The notes under the pieces: generated by a model | What the model saw: the letters and a program-made list of their open reading frames with translations, nothing else | What the model was told of the DNA's origin: nothing | Databases searched by the model: none | Translations under genes and position numbers: made by a program | In this document: piece after piece, positions 107 through 5,986 of the stretch | Position numbering within the stretch: position 1 is the first letter of the stretch | Layout of the letters: every line of letters begins with the position of its first letter | Source: Torulaspora globosa | Lineage: Eukaryota > Ascomycota > Saccharomycetes > Saccharomycetales > Saccharomycetaceae | Assembly: GCF_014133895.1 (NCBI RefSeq) | Contig: NC_050732.1 | Location: 248,001-312,000, forward strand | Reading direction: 5' to 3' | DNA length: 64,000 bases

Positions 107-284
107 CCAAATTGAATGTGCCATCTTGTTGTTCTTCCGGATCATCTTCAAAGCTCTCCATTATACCTGATAAATCGTTATTGTCCTCAGGATCATTTTC
201 ATTTTCCGTCTTGGTAATCGGAATCAAATTCTTCAAAGTCTCTGTCAAACGTAGGGTCACGGAAATGGGTGGAGACAGTCGAAC

Positions 285-1100
285 CAGGAGAACGACCTAT
301 GAAGTTTATACCGTCTCTAATAGGCGGGTAGACAGTCGGAATTTTCACACGAATACACCCGTGTTGGATATTGCATGAGCCATTAGAATCTATTAACCCT
401 GCGAGAAAAGCTTCACGCACCACTGTTTGTTCTGTTCGCATGAATAGAGGAACGCTTTTTGGGCCATTTTTTCTTCCATTTCCCCAGAATCTTAATCCTT
501 CCAGAACCTTAACTAGCGGGTTATTTGCGTTCCGTATCGTGCCATTATAGGTCTGAAGGTATCCTATTGCTTCAAAGCCCTTCACAAGCTTGATTCTGAG
601 ACTCATACCCCAAAGTTCTGCATTCTCCCGAAGTCTGGTGTTGACATCTTCATCTCCAGAGTGCAAAGCGAAGGCTGCTCCTTTTCACCAATCCAGAACC
701 GTAAAAACCATGCTTCAAGCTGCCCTGCAGTGAAGCAGCCCGGCGGCGTTCTTTGTTAAAGCATTTCAAATCATCTGCCTCACATTGCCAATTGAAGCAT
801 CTTCCCTCGCTCCGCAGTACCATTGGAATCGTCTCGATTTTTCCTTGATGGTCTTGATATTCGACCATCCGTTGTTTGATGATCAGTTGGATGAAACCTC
901 CACGCCCTTTCTTGGCTATCTGGATCCTGTGTTTCGTCCTCAAAGTCAGTTGTTGTCTCTTGGAGGTCATTATGCCCCAGGATCTTGCAAGTGTGCGTAG
1001 TGGTTGGAGTTTTGTCGAAGTCTGACCAAATCATGGTAGCCTCCGCACATCAGACGTACGAACTTCATCGCCAACTTTGGTGCAAGCTAAGACACCCATG
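285..1100 (-). pseudogene. HO: decayed HO/WHO-family LAGLIDADG endonuclease
   Basis: HO is the site-specific endonuclease that starts mating-type switching; it descends from the VMA1 intein (VDE). Three reading frames are needed to follow the homology. From about 1100 to 700 one frame gives an intein-like start (KVGDEVRTSD) and then segments resembling the HO N-terminal domain (LTLRTKHRIQ, FNWQCEADDL), interrupted by TGA at 1031-1033. At about 681-710 a second frame holds FLRFWIGEK, matching the first LAGLIDADG helix (LGLWLGD in HO) with the acidic residue changed to Glu. From about 660 a third frame reads RLRENAELWG and then VREAFLAGLIDSNG (around 380-415), the second LAGLIDADG helix. Recognisable similarity fades near 285, and I see no zinc-finger tail. 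The gene is therefore dead: one stop and at least two frameshifts. It could be a relic of HO itself or of a related WHO homing element; sequence alone does not decide. Confidence 0.85.
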
Positions 1101-1105
1101 ACTCT

Positions 1106-1112
1106 TTACCCG
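1106..1112 (-). promoter_or_regulatory. Reb1-type site
   Basis: The plus strand reads TTACCCG, the complement of the Reb1 core CGGGTAA. Reb1 acts in nucleosome exclusion and transcription roadblocks. The site sits just outside the start of the HO relic, between it and ASF1. The core is short, so a chance match is possible. Confidence 0.35.
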
Positions 1113-1166
1113 AACATGCTCAACTGACAAGCTTTAGACTTGCATTTCAATCACCTCGGCGGCAGC

Positions 1167-1191
1167 GCGAGTGCGCTGACAGCGCACTCGC
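1167..1191. repeat. perfect GC-rich inverted repeat (11-bp arms, 3-nt loop)
   Basis: gcgagtgcgct and agcgcactcgc flank the loop gac and pair perfectly. A second perfect hairpin, ggcggc-taag-gccgcc, follows at 1196-1211. Together they form two adjacent stem-loops in the upstream region of ASF1. Confidence 0.8.
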
Positions 1192-1521
1192 TGGTGGCGG
1201 CTAAGGCCGCCCTGCTGGTGGTCGGGCACGGGCTGACTTTGGCGCGCTGCTGGCGGCGCTGGCGACGCAGTCGTCGTGCAAGAAACCGAGGAGATACAAG
1301 CTACGTCTCGTTTTATCAGCAGCCGCACCGGAATGCGGCACTGCGGTAAGCCGCCTGCTTCTACGCGGGCAGCTTTCTTCGAGCAGCAGGAACTTCTCGC
1401 TCAGCTAGTGTAGGTTAGATAGTTGTGTGTATAGGATTATCAAGTGTCGCGTAGTAGCAGGTAAAAAAAGAGCGGTGCACGTCAAGACTGAGTACAGGAG
1501 GTTGTGAGAGAGAGAGCTAAG

Positions 1522-2337
1522 ATGTCGATTGTGTCGCTGCTTGGTATCAAGGTGCTTAACAATCCCGCGAATTTTTCGGATCCGTATGAGTTTGAAATAA
1601 CGTTTGAGTGTCTGGAGCCGTTGAAGCATGATTTGGAGTGGAAGTTGACATACGTGGGGTCTTCGAGGTCGCTGGAGCACGACCAGGAGTTGGACTCGAT
1701 CCTGGTGGGGCCAGTGCCCGTTGGGGTGAATAAGTTTGTCTTTACGGCGGATCCGCCGTCAGCAGAGCTGATCCCGGCGAGCGAGCTGGTCAGCGTGACG
1801 GTGATCCTGCTCAGTTGCTCATACGATGGCAGAGAGTTTGTGAGAGTCGGCTACTATGTGAACAACGAGTACGACAGCGAGGAGCTGAGGGAGAATCCTC
1901 CGGCGAAGGTCCAGGTGCAGCATGTGGTGAGGAACATCCTGGCTGAGAAGCCTAGAGTAACGAGGTTCAACATTGTGTGGGACAACGAGAACGAGGGCGA
2001 GATGTATCCTCCGGAGCAGCCCGGGGTCGACGACGAGGCAGACGAAGAGGACGACGAGGAAGAGGAGGAAGAGGAAGAGGAGGAGGAGGAGGAGGAAGAT
2101 GATGACGAGGCTGAAGAAGAAGCTGAGGAGGAAGGCGAAGCTAGGGAGCTAGAGGCTCAGGAAGCTGAGGAAGAAGACGAAGAGGCTGCGGAGCAGGCGA
2201 TAGATGCAGCAGATCAGCATGCCGGCGAGGACGAGGACCCTCCGGAGATAAACGAGGAAGACGACGACTTGCCATCGCTGAAGAAAAGAAAAATCGAGGG
2301 CGAGGACGAGGCAGCATCAACGCCTCAGGATGTCTAA
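1522..2337 (+). CDS. ASF1: histone H3-H4 chaperone Asf1
   Basis: Asf1 binds H3-H4 dimers and delivers them for chromatin assembly during replication, for H3K56 acetylation and for nucleosome exchange; it acts in the nucleus. The protein is 271 residues, against 279 in S. cerevisiae. Residues 1-155 are the conserved immunoglobulin-like core and are nearly identical to the family. Asp37 and Val94, needed for H3 contact, are both present. After about residue 165 comes a long Glu/Asp tail encoded by repetitive gaggag codons (about 2030-2210), then a basic KKRKIEG nuclear signal near the C-terminus. The start chosen is the ATG that begins MSIVSLLG, as in orthologues; the frame is open a few codons further up but without an ATG. 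The gene converges with the J-like gene on the other strand, only about 30 bp away. Identification is essentially certain. Confidence 0.97.
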
Positions 2338-2366: not shown

Positions 2367-3122
2367 CTATTGGGACTCCCAAAGCTCGTTGATGATCTGG
2401 AAAAGCCTTGTAATTTTCCTCACGGTTCCCGCGTCCTCGGGGGCAAGCTTGCCCAACAGTCGGTCGGGGTGCCATTTCAGTCTCTCTCTTTTCAAGATCG
2501 ACGGCAGATCGAAGCCAAGTTGCGAGCAGCTGTGCAGGTAGAACTGTTCGACGCGGTCTGCCGTCAGATCATTGATATGGATGTGCTCGCCACGGTTTGC
2601 GCTTAGAATCGGAAAATATAATGCGCTACCGCCTTTATCTTGGTTCCAGTACCGTACAATATAGTCGTGTGTGCTAAATCTCTGCTTTTCCGACAGATTC
2701 GGTCGGTCAAATGACTGTGCATCGAATGAATCCGACTTTTGGATTCTGTTCGCGCCTTTCGAGCTCTCAAAGTCCAGCATCTCCCTTTCAGTGCCAACAA
2801 ATCTATAGCCGCCCACAGACTCTCCGTACTCGTAGTATGTTTCACGATTGGTAGCCTTTTTAGGTGGCTTTAGACTTTCTTCATCGGAGCAGGTGCTTTG
2901 AGAATTGTCCAAATCCTCCTGCACAAAGATAAGTGGCTTCGAGCTGGGATTTTTGACTCTCGTACCGTGGCTTGGCTTACAGGCACTCTTAAGAGGTTTT
3001 TGGACCCTCTTTTCTCTTTTCAGCTCAACATTTTTGCCTTGACGGATAAAGACTGGTCTTTCGAATTTGATATCGAAGGTTTCTGATGATTCCTGTCCCT
3101 CGTAGTCATTCGGCCTTTCCAT
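2367..3122 (-). CDS. uncharacterised protein with C-terminal J-like motif (YKR041W position)
   Basis: A 251-residue protein of unknown function. The N-terminal half is charged, low in complexity and probably disordered. The C-terminal 40 residues contain LKRERLKWHPDRL followed by a helix ending in INELWE, which resembles the HPD-bearing helix pair seen in J-like proteins of the NFKBIL1 type; I cannot see a full J domain. Identity is suggested by position. In S. cerevisiae YKR041W (241 residues, reported at the mitotic spindle) lies beyond KAE1 on the chromosome XI segment, and ASF1 lies at the matching place on chromosome X. After merging the two segments YKR041W would fall beside ASF1 on the opposite strand, as here. 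The length also fits. This orthology is inferred from synteny, not from a remembered alignment. Confidence 0.6.
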   Translation of the reverse strand: MERPNDYEGQESSETFDIKFERPVFIRQGKNVELKREKRVQKPLKSACKPSHGTRVKNPSSKPLIFVQEDLDNSQSTCSDEESLKPPKKATNRETYYEYGESVGGYRFVGTEREMLDFESSKGANRIQKSDSFDAQSFDRPNLSEKQRFSTHDYIVRYWNQDKGGSALYFPILSANRGEHIHINDLTADRVEQFYLHSCSQLGFDLPSILKRERLKWHPDRLLGKLAPEDAGTVRKITRLFQIINELWESQ

Positions 3123-3226
3123 TTATATCATCAGTCATAGCTGGAATCAACCCTGGAAGCTCTGCTTCGAGAGAGTTTCTCATTTGAGATTATCGGAACC
3201 TCACCTTAAATGGTGAAAAAAATAAA

Positions 3227-3299
3227 TGGACAAGTCCGGAGTCGAACCGAAGACCTCTCCCATGCTAAGGGAGCGCGCTACCAACTACGCCACATGCCC
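3227..3299 (-). tRNA. tRNA-Ala (AGC)
   Basis: The minus strand folds as a 73-nt tRNA without intron: acceptor start GGGC, A box TGGCGTAGTTGG, anticodon AGC at 3264-3266 and B box GGTTCGACTCC. It is nearly identical to the S. cerevisiae tRNA-Ala(AGC), including the same mismatch near the base of the acceptor stem. It lies at the left junction of the inverted block, between the J-like gene and MEF2. Confidence 0.97.
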
Positions 3300-3580
3300 A
3301 TACTGTTTTGATGTTTTAAAAATATTTTTTTCTACTACCCTCATCTCGTTATATTCATACTTCCACGTCCAAGAGCAAAGATATTCGCTAATCTCAGCTA
3401 GCATATGATTGCGACTATGTTACTAGGCCAACAGCTCCAGAGGGATTTGACAGCGAAAGATCAGACCTTTTGTTTTTGGAAAATCAAAAAACTTAAGCTA
3501 AATGTAAAAACTCAATGGCTGTTGGATCAATTGCTTAATATGTACATGTCTATTTAGCTTACAACCAATTGTTACTCAGG

Positions 3581-5986
3581 CTATTCGTTTAAAATGGAGC
3601 TTAGACGATCCTTATTTACCTTATCCATGCCGCTATAGTTCATATGGAAGGAGCCCCTACCCTGTGTCAAGCTTCTAAATCTATTTGTGTATGACACCAT
3701 GTCTCTAAGCGGAACTTGAGCCTTAATAAATTTCATGCTAGATCCTTCAGAACCCAGGTTTGCAAGCTTAACCGTCGGGTCAGGTGGAAGGAACTGCTCC
3801 TGGGCAATTTTCTGAAATTCGATATTCTGGTCGTTGTTATCTATACCACTTTCGTCGTCGATTGACAAAATATTGGCATTGCGAGAACCTGTGAGATCTT
3901 GAATAACTGATCCCATGTCTTTTTGTGGAACGGATATGTCAAGATCCATAACAGGCTCTAAAACCGAAAACTGATCTTGTGGGATATTTGAAATAGCTGT
4001 TAAAATGAGTTTCCTTGAAAGCTTCAATACCTCTGCTGGGTTTTCGATGTCCGGCGGTAGAGTCCAGTCGCCTTTAACTTTCACAGCGCATGAATGAAGT
4101 GGATATCTGGCGATCTTACCACCCTTTTGCAAAGCGACAATGGAACTTGAAATCAAAGCATTGATCACCGCTTGAAAAGATATCTGAAAGGGCCACAATT
4201 CTTCCGTTGTGTACTTTCTATGATTCTCCATAATGAGATAGTTATTATCAATTCCCAATGGGTACCACGTCTCGTGAATCGAACGAGCAACTACGTCCAA
4301 GGTGTCTTCATGAAGGGGCAAAGGAAGAATGGATACAGTAAGTTGATATCCAGCGTCAGAACTTATCGTCTCTTCTGGAGTCTTTCCATCGATAGTTTCT
4401 TTGTAAGAGACCATTACCTTACCTATCTCAACATCTGCATTTAGTTCATTGACTAACTTATATTTAGCGATCTCCAGGTGCAGCTCACCCATCCCACTTA
4501 AAAGTGTTTGGCCCGTTTCCTCGTCAAATGAAACGTGCAGACTTGGATCTTCTCGAGTCAGTGTCCCTAAGGCATCCTCCATCGATTTTTTATTGCCCAG
4601 TGTTCTTGGCTCTACGCAAACACTGAAAACTGGTGGCGGTATGGCGATCGGATTAATCTTTACCGTGAGTTCCCTTTTGCTATCGAGCGATCTCAGTCCA
4701 TCCTTTTTAAGCGAGTGAGTAACGATGGTATCACCCGTCGAAACGTTTTCGGCCACTGTCGTTCCAACCAATATACCTATCTGTCCAGGATAGAGTGTCG
4801 ATACTTCCTCATATACATTAGCGTGTGGGATAACCAACTTACCAATCTTGAACTTTTTCCCGGTGTTGGAGTTGAAAGCGGTATTTCCAGCATGTAAAGT
4901 CCCTGAGTAAACTCTTACAAAGACCATAATCCCTCTAATAGGATCCGTGATGACTTTGAACGCCAGCAACACACAAAGATTCTTGTTATTATTCATTAGT
5001 GCGCCCAGCTTGGGATCCAACTTGACTGGAAGGGTAGGATGATTGGTCTCGGGAAGCGAAGCTTCCAATGGCGACGGCAGATAATTCACTATCGCATCAA
5101 GAAGCGGCTGGACGCCGATGTTTCTGAACGATGCACCACAGAGAACAGGCGTGACGAACTTAGCAAGGGTTGCCTTTCTGATCGATCCATTGAGCAACTC
5201 CGGTGGAACCTTGAGATAATCCCCGTTTGCTTCCTCTAGAAAAAATTCTATTAGGTTTTCGTCGTATTCACCCAGCGTTTCAATCAGCGACTCTCTACCT
5301 CTCAAAAGCTGTTCCTGAATTTCCGCTCCAGCGGTTGTTGCATCTGTGACATTTATCTTGTCGCAATCCTCTGGATCCCACTCAATAACCTTCATATTGA
5401 CAAGATCAATGACGCCTGCAAACCTCGGAACCTGATCCTGCGGCTCCTGGACAAATAATGGAATATTTATAAGTGCTACTCTTGTGTTCATCTTTGCAAT
5501 CAGCTCCTTAACAGTCCTGCTGAAGCCAGCCCCAACTCTGTCCATCTTGTTAATGAAGCATATCTTGGGAGACCTTTGCGACTGCTTCCACACCTTTTCC
5601 GTCTGCGCTTCGACGCCTGCTACTGCATCCAGAATTGTCACGCATCCATCAAGCACTTTAACTGACCTAATGACTTCAAATGTGAAATCTGCATGGCCCG
5701 GGGTATCGATCAAGTTGATCTGATGGTCTTTCTGCCAATTAAAAGAGACGGCAGCACTTTGAATAGTGATTCCTCTTGACTTCTCCTGCGGCAGAAAATC
5801 TGTTATCGTGTCACCTTGGTCGACATTCCCTATTCTGCTGATCTTTCCAGAGTAATAGAGCATTCGCTCAGTAGTGGTAGTTTTACCTGCATCAATGTGG
5901 GCAATGATACCGATGTTTCTGAGTTTCCGGAGCTCAGGCTTGGTGGCATAGCTTCTCAGAGACCCCCATAACCTTGCAATTGACAT
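3581..5986 (-). CDS. MEF2: mitochondrial ribosome-releasing/elongation factor G2
   Basis: Mef2 is the mitochondrial EF-G2 type GTPase, which works with the recycling factor to split mitochondrial ribosomes after termination. The protein is 801 residues (819 in S. cerevisiae). A short basic N-terminus (about residues 1-16, ARLWGSLRSYATK) looks like a mitochondrial presequence. The G domain follows: AHIDAGKT P-loop at 29-36, a DTPGH motif, and NKMD. Domain II and the EF-G domains IV-V follow (ending with a GSFHMNYSGMDKV-like segment). The start ATG is directly before the presequence. The gene is divergent from GCN3 with about 340 bp between them. In S. cerevisiae MEF2 neighbours GSH1; here GSH1 lies 45 kb away, which marks an inversion end. 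MEF1 was considered, but synteny with GSM1, and the length, favour MEF2. Confidence 0.93.
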   Translation of the reverse strand: MSIARLWGSLRSYATKPELRKLRNIGIIAHIDAGKTTTTERMLYYSGKISRIGNVDQGDTITDFLPQEKSRGITIQSAAVSFNWQKDHQINLIDTPGHADFTFEVIRSVKVLDGCVTILDAVAGVEAQTEKVWKQSQRSPKICFINKMDRVGAGFSRTVKELIAKMNTRVALINIPLFVQEPQDQVPRFAGVIDLVNMKVIEWDPEDCDKINVTDATTAGAEIQEQLLRGRESLIETLGEYDENLIEFFLEEANGDYLKVPPELLNGSIRKATLAKFVTPVLCGASFRNIGVQPLLDAIVNYLPSPLEASLPETNHPTLPVKLDPKLGALMNNNKNLCVLLAFKVITDPIRGIMVFVRVYSGTLHAGNTAFNSNTGKKFKIGKLVIPHANVYEEVSTLYPGQIGILVGTTVAENVSTGDTIVTHSLKKDGLRSLDSKRELTVKINPIAIPPPVFSVCVEPRTLGNKKSMEDALGTLTREDPSLHVSFDEETGQTLLSGMGELHLEIAKYKLVNELNADVEIGKVMVSYKETIDGKTPEETISSDAGYQLTVSILPLPLHEDTLDVVARSIHETWYPLGIDNNYLIMENHRKYTTEELWPFQISFQAVINALISSSIVALQKGGKIARYPLHSCAVKVKGDWTLPPDIENPAEVLKLSRKLILTAISNIPQDQFSVLEPVMDLDISVPQKDMGSVIQDLTGSRNANILSIDDESGIDNNDQNIEFQKIAQEQFLPPDPTVKLANLGSEGSSMKFIKAQVPLRDMVSYTNRFRSLTQGRGSFHMNYSGMDKVNKDRLSSILNE

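Follow-up and report, generated by a model that had tools for sequence, protein, structure and literature searches.

The window, the whole 64,000-nucleotide stretch of Torulaspora globosa DNA analysed here, contains on its minus strand, at positions 109 to 1153, a badly decayed homing-endonuclease gene of the HO/VDE/WHO endonuclease family. This relic lies in a divergent intergenic region of about 1.9 kb, between ASF1 and a reverse-oriented SUN-family gene of the NCA3/UTH1 type that is located to the left, outside the window (L009:3550-4641; PF03856, 321.9 bits), and neither neighbour is broken by it. A preliminary description had recognized a decaying HO/WHO-type endonuclease beside ASF1 at 285 to 1100, an interval that proved to lie inside the relic but to fall short of its full extent. 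The features of the locus are as follows, with C2_709, C2_1066 and similar labels denoting other copies of the element in the genome, which are enumerated below.

109..245, minus strand: 3′-most surviving piece of WHO10, the acidic linker preceding the missing zinc finger; matched at the DNA level by 9 other WHO10 places, 83-95% identity
202..219, minus strand: lesion S9, an out-of-frame deletion of 2 nt that recurs in the dead copy at C2:1066k; the exact junction string occurs in C6 (the relic) and C2_1066 only
245..731, minus strand: endonuclease-domain part; blastn match to intact C2_709, 83% over 509 bp
379..408, minus strand: second LAGLIDADG motif, FLAGLIDSNG, from translation and codons; Asn (AAT) replaces the conserved Asp (GAT)
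687..710, minus strand: first LAGLIDADG motif, WFLRFWIG, from translation and codons; the subsequent Asp-Gly falls inside a 10-nt deletion
749..1071, minus strand: Hint (intein-type) N-terminal part, spread over two to three frames; tblastn with residues 49-193 of WHO10 and blastn, no Pfam Hint match
1083..1153, minus strand: M2 spacer, 71 bp, located 3′ of FBA1 stop-codon-derived sequence in other copies; DNA matches
1175..1217, minus strand: GC-rich piece of 43 bp shared only with the C2:1065k copy (40/43 bases), its order relative to M2 differing
1522..2337, plus strand: ASF1, the right neighbour and context outside the element; PF04729, 242.8 bits

Protein queries from HO, VMA1 with VDE, and WHO all gave matches at the relic, the best of them to WHO10. 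The Pfam Hom_end profile matched window 244-456 (minus strand) at 45.5 bits, against a cut-off of 21.1, and the 161-amino acid frame at 199-684 that carries this match also matched the PI-SceI chains in the PDB (6.4e-13). With the intact WHO10 proteins as tblastn queries, the gene could be traced from window position 1071 to 108 across three frames, just as the preliminary description had it, and both LAGLIDADG helices reported there are present. The best stretch reached 188-226 bits with the genome's three WHO10 proteins, 121 bits with another WHO, encoded at the FBA1 locus, 63.5 bits with HO, and 54.3 bits with VMA1 carrying VDE, while 200 mononucleotide shuffles of the relic DNA, searched with the WHO10, HO and VMA1 queries, yielded at most 26.9 bits. 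Because WHO10 is by far the closest in bit score, the relic is, on sequence similarity, assigned to the WHO10 mobile-element family of T. globosa, described by Coughlan et al. (2020; PMC7282813). Thus, WHO is the correct branch among the families first proposed. The intein-type N-terminal domain can be followed in the WHO10 alignment, and solely through it: Pfam gave no Hint match in the relic frames scanned, and none of the 16 matches listed by a genome-wide PF05203 search lies at the relic.

HO is itself a homologous Hint and LAGLIDADG protein, 33% identical to the relic over 153 residues, and the relic could on that ground be taken for an HO pseudogene that records the loss of mating-type switching. 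However, the relic is far closer to WHO10 (226 bits, versus 63.5 for HO), and the genome retains an intact HO-type gene on C4, a 607-amino acid open frame with Hint and endonuclease domains that adjoins an Hsp70 gene (recognized by eye); this origin therefore seems to us scarcely credible. Because HO is intact, the relic carries no record of a loss of switching, contrary to what the preliminary description had hoped to learn from it. A VDE identity was likewise rejected, VMA1 with VDE scoring 54.3 bits versus 226 for WHO10. The endonuclease domain of VDE (PI-SceI) is homologous to that of the relic, but the relic is intergenic and has no surrounding VMA1 sequence; VDE sits in an unbroken VMA1 frame of 1084 amino acids on C3.

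Compared with intact C2_709, the relic bears eight out-of-frame deletions (26, 16, 16, 1, 43, 76, 10, and 2 nt) and six in-frame deletions (9, 3, 6, 6, 138, and 12 nt), a count that omits one 6-nt difference present in two intact genes as well. Its 315 complete codons in the C2_709 register include 84 with a changed amino acid and no stop. The gene is thus frameshifted, as had been described, but far more heavily than by the two frameshifts originally counted, and the stops reported alongside them, at least one, are a consequence of the frameshifts. Both LAGLIDADG motifs have lost the conserved Asp, and these two residues are catalytic in PI-SceI. The N-terminus and everything past the acidic linker are also absent: the relic stops at C2_709 position 5209 and intact relatives extend to 5627, so that the missing zinc finger is taken as a truncation. 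One of the eight out-of-frame deletions is shared exactly with another copy (S9, with C2_1066), three (16, 16, and 43 nt) overlap and exceed those of C2_90/C2_1066, C2_124, and C2_90/C2_124, and four are private. Thus, at least four lesions are private to the relic, and at least one is shared with a second dead copy.

In Saccharomyces cerevisiae, NCA3 adjoins ASF1 in the same divergent arrangement, and the NCA3-ASF1 order is for this reason probably ancestral, with the relic dropped in between; the case for an insertion into this interval rests on synteny. Neither an FBA1 coding fragment nor an FBA1 3′ fragment was found at the relic, and the M2 spacer is present. M2 also matches C1_941, C2_650, C2_90, C2_1066 (twice), the FBA1 locus, and C8_565, with shorter matches in C2_124 and C3_227. 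It is preceded in C1_941, C2_650, C2_90, C2_1066, and the FBA1 locus by M1, a short piece that begins with or near the FBA1 stop-codon sequence, and in C1_941, C2_650, and C2_90 the FBA1 end itself is matched beside it. The presence of M2 in the relic points to descent from an FBA1-linked element. As to the 43-bp piece beyond it, a 45-amino acid reading of its C2:1065k counterpart matched only itself in the genome at E values up to 1. This piece belongs to a GC-rich stretch beside the relic, at window 1163-1217, that contains a near-perfect palindrome. On the other side of ASF1, between it and an elongation-factor-G-type gene, lies a 251-amino acid open frame (window 2370-3122, minus strand) with no Pfam match.

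DNA searches with the relic and the intact element located substantial WHO10 coding sequence at no fewer than 12 loci, three of them intact, together with at least four small fragments. These numbers are lower bounds, as only the best-scoring candidates were evaluated.

Intact WHO10: C1:1517k, C2:709k, C3:227k
Other substantial WHO10 loci: C1:941k, C2:80k, C2:90k, C2:124k, C2:650k, C2:1066k, C2:1264k, C6:248k (the relic), and C7 beside FBA1
C8:565511, 58 bp: small fragment, M2 only
C2:286899-287097, 199 bp: small fragment, FBA1 3′ end, distant from the FBA1 locus
C4:169642-169777, 136 bp: small fragment, FBA1 flank, far from FBA1
C4:36330, 97 bp: small fragment, 78% identical to the zinc-finger part

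The three intact genes correspond to the database proteins HG536_0B03810 (C2, 100%), 0C01180 (C3), and 0A08540 (C1), the last two matched through protein length. Judged by gene order, the surroundings of intact copies probably represent the CMC4 and MIN6 sites of strain CBS764. The intact copy on C3 adjoins a lysine-methyltransferase-type gene, which fits a published insertion site in CBS764, where WHO10 insertions have been described at CMC4, RKM5, and MIN6 (PMC7282813). The ends of WHO10 vary from copy to copy, and ten flanking proteins scanned, drawn from seven of the loci, each represent a separate family. In an all-against-all comparison of 13 loci (C2_90 and C2_1066 in part), only short patches of about 80-155 bp are shared outside the element among the matches listed. 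Eight of the 11 dispersed loci have an FBA1 3′ fragment 3′ of WHO10, the exceptions being C6, C2:1264k, and C2:80k. One of the two solitary FBA1 scraps (C4:169642 and C2:286899) is 98% identical to the WHO10-borne flank. A preference of WHO10 loci for tRNA genes was considered and rejected, since only 2 of the 13 loci scanned (ARAGORN, bacterial code) have one: in L009 it lies at window 3226-3300, 2 kb away from the relic, and in L024 it lies roughly 100 bp away from the C8 fragment of 58 bp.

The dispersal of the copies also bears on the suggestion, made in the preliminary description, that a homing element once used the neighbourhood of ASF1 and NCA3 as WHO elements use FBA1. The relic does adjoin ASF1, and WHO12 makes targets other than FBA1 conceivable (PMC7282813). 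Against this, comparison of the whole intergenic region with the genome revealed no duplicated NCA3 or ASF1 fragment among the matches listed, and the single copy at ASF1 contrasts with at least 10 other dispersed copies beside unrelated genes, so that an element specific for this neighbourhood appears very improbable. The relic is instead a further member of the published WHO10 family. With the elements described in PMC7282813 it shares the gene family, a location away from FBA1, and, as protein records and neighbouring genes suggest, the genome of the CBS764 insertions; its M2 spacer represents a putatively FBA1-derived flank. Unlike intact WHO10, it is dead, truncated, intergenic, and without the FBA1 3′ fragment, and it has one disabling lesion in common with another dead copy.

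It is this shared damage among dead copies that makes the family interesting. Nine lesion strings, S1 to S9, were checked for exact occurrence, with the following distribution.

S1, 1 nt: C2_1264, C2_90, C2_124
S2, 37 nt: C2_90, C2_124
S3, 23 nt: C2_90, C2_1066, C2_124
S4, 1 nt: C7_FBA1, C1_941, C2_650
S5, 791 nt, with loss of the endonuclease domain: C1_941, C2_650
S6, two 1-nt losses: C1_941, C2_650
S7, 27 nt at the start codon: C2_124, C2_80, C2_650
S8, 2 nt: C2_1264, C2_650
S9, 2 nt: C6 (the relic), C2_1066

All nine strings are absent from the three intact WHO10 genes, and the S9 site is intact not only in these (C1_1517, C2_709, C3_227) but also in C2_90 and C7. C1_941 and C2_650, which are unlinked, additionally have a 153-bp 5′ extension in common that was found at no third place among the genome matches listed. 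The same two copies are mosaics. In its 3′ part, C1_941, a dead copy on chromosome C1, agrees with intact C3_227 at 481 of 482 bases, compared with 79-90% for the other pairs compared, whereas its middle agrees with dead C2_650 at 247 of 253 bases and with C3_227 at only 213 of 254. Just upstream of that middle tract, C2_650 in turn matches the FBA1-locus pseudogene at 144 of 146 bases. The lesion-bearing tracts and the mosaics together indicate that unlinked loci have exchanged copies of sequence along with its disabling lesions. In any one case, this may have happened through new insertion of a dead copy or through conversion of a resident one.

The shared lesions could in principle reflect independent events at hot spots or duplication of host segments, with no copying of broken elements. 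Some deletions are indeed flanked by short repeats, and three deletions of the relic overlap those of other copies without matching them. Yet C1_941 and C2_650 have four distinct lesions in common (S4, the two in S6, and S5) within or bordering their 247/253 tract, C2_90 and C2_124 share three inside a tract of 194/199 identical bases, and the DNA flanking the element is, among the matches listed, unshared except for short patches; we consider recurrent or segmental origins unlikely. Exact disabling lesions common to dead copies at unlinked loci go beyond the published account, in the portion of it available to us (PMC7282813).

The evidence for mosaic structure is strong for C1_941, C2_650, and C2_90/C2_124, and it is weak for the relic itself. 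The 5′ part of the relic is nearest to C2_124 (229/255), its endonuclease part to C2_1264 (449/487 bases, columns 880-1430), and its 3′ part equally near to C2_1066 and C2_90 (132/141 each). Segment trees grouped the relic with C2_124 in the 5′ part (SH-aLRT 72.3, bootstrap 68), with C2_1264 in the endonuclease part (92.5/92), and with C1_1517, C3_227, and C2_90 in the 3′ part (68.7/35), apart from its lesion partner C2_1066. A conversion scan yielded an over-long near-identical run at p < 0.01 in 15 of the 65 testable copy pairs (66 in total), with 500 permutations, a smallest possible p of 0.002, and no correction for the 65 tests; 6 of the 15 runs fall in a generally conserved upstream region (the first 125 aligned bases) and thus provide no evidence of conversion. 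Because the permutation takes no account of how rates vary along the gene, we rely on the direct tract contrasts rather than on the scan.

Collectively, these data show the relic to be a dead, deletion-ridden WHO10 copy, and we have high confidence in an overall reading in which it probably arrived as an off-target patch, already partly damaged, and decayed further without breaking a gene. We infer that the endonuclease of an intact WHO10 copy would break host DNA, and that repair would then patch in a piece of any WHO10 template, living or dead, along with FBA1-derived flanks. Conversion between copies, and deletions, would subsequently reshape the inserted pieces, and the copy beside ASF1 would probably represent one such patch, carrying some damage from the outset and decaying thereafter. 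Templated patching of endonuclease-made breaks is favored because it accommodates the variation in ends, the internal fragments, the passenger pieces, and the use of dead donors, and because allele-specific cutting with gene conversion has been published for the relative Who6 (PMC7282813). Counting against the patching model are the lack of an FBA1 3′ fragment at the relic and a 3′ segment that is no closer to C2_1066 than to C2_90.

HO is proposed to derive from WHO elements. The available text of PMC7282813 describes as unclear the means by which WHO10 gains entry to sites lacking homology, and its tree excluded badly degraded relics. Such relics record the process in their many lengths and variable ends, in passengers derived from FBA1, and in disabling mutations that were copied from one chromosome to another, a pattern that points to templated patching of breaks and not to fixed-end transposition. 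The patching model predicts that living copies mobilize or overwrite dead ones. The available main text of PMC7282813 contains no mention of ASF1, NCA3, MAM1, ISN1, or TFS1, although its supplements may list relics, and among the matches listed by a literature search no later title deals with WHO10 relics in T. globosa.

In six of the copies (C2_709, C1_1517, C3_227, C2_90, C2_1066, and C1_941), pieces of the copy's own coding sequence are repeated in inverted orientation directly 3′ of the WHO10 stop codon; C2_650, where the gene end and FBA1 fragment are both retained, lacks this fold-back. In C2_709 (L013, oriented 4977-5752), positions 5630-5752 face 5209-5123 and 5025-4977. RNA folding of the three intact genes gave 118, 119, and 155 pairs between the coding arm and the 3′ arm, corresponding to z scores of -14.1 to -17.7 against 30 simple dinucleotide shuffles per gene. 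The genome encodes an Argonaute of 1047 amino acids (1296.9 bits with Kluyveromyces polysporus AGO) and a Dcr1-type RNase III of 743 amino acids (281.7 bits with K. polysporus Dcr1). Self-silencing of WHO10 through a fold-back hairpin would be possible; the arm may alternatively be a scar of repair. The words "inverted," "nonautonomous," "RNAi," and "palindrom" do not occur in the available main text of PMC7282813. More broadly, and only tentatively, since we give it somewhat less than even credence, WHO10 may form a population of living and dead members, in which the repair of breaks made by the endonuclease copies defective members between loci in trans, among them an endonuclease-less form that bears the identical 791-nt deletion at two unlinked loci, and in which the fold-back of the intact genes gives an RNA hairpin of 118-155 arm pairs that could feed Dicer and Argonaute and so restrain the element. 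A second RNase III in the genome is closest to yeast Ribonuclease 3. At the FBA1 locus (C7:162k), sequence from the early coding region of the WHO10 pseudogene is repeated in inverted orientation near the start of that pseudogene.
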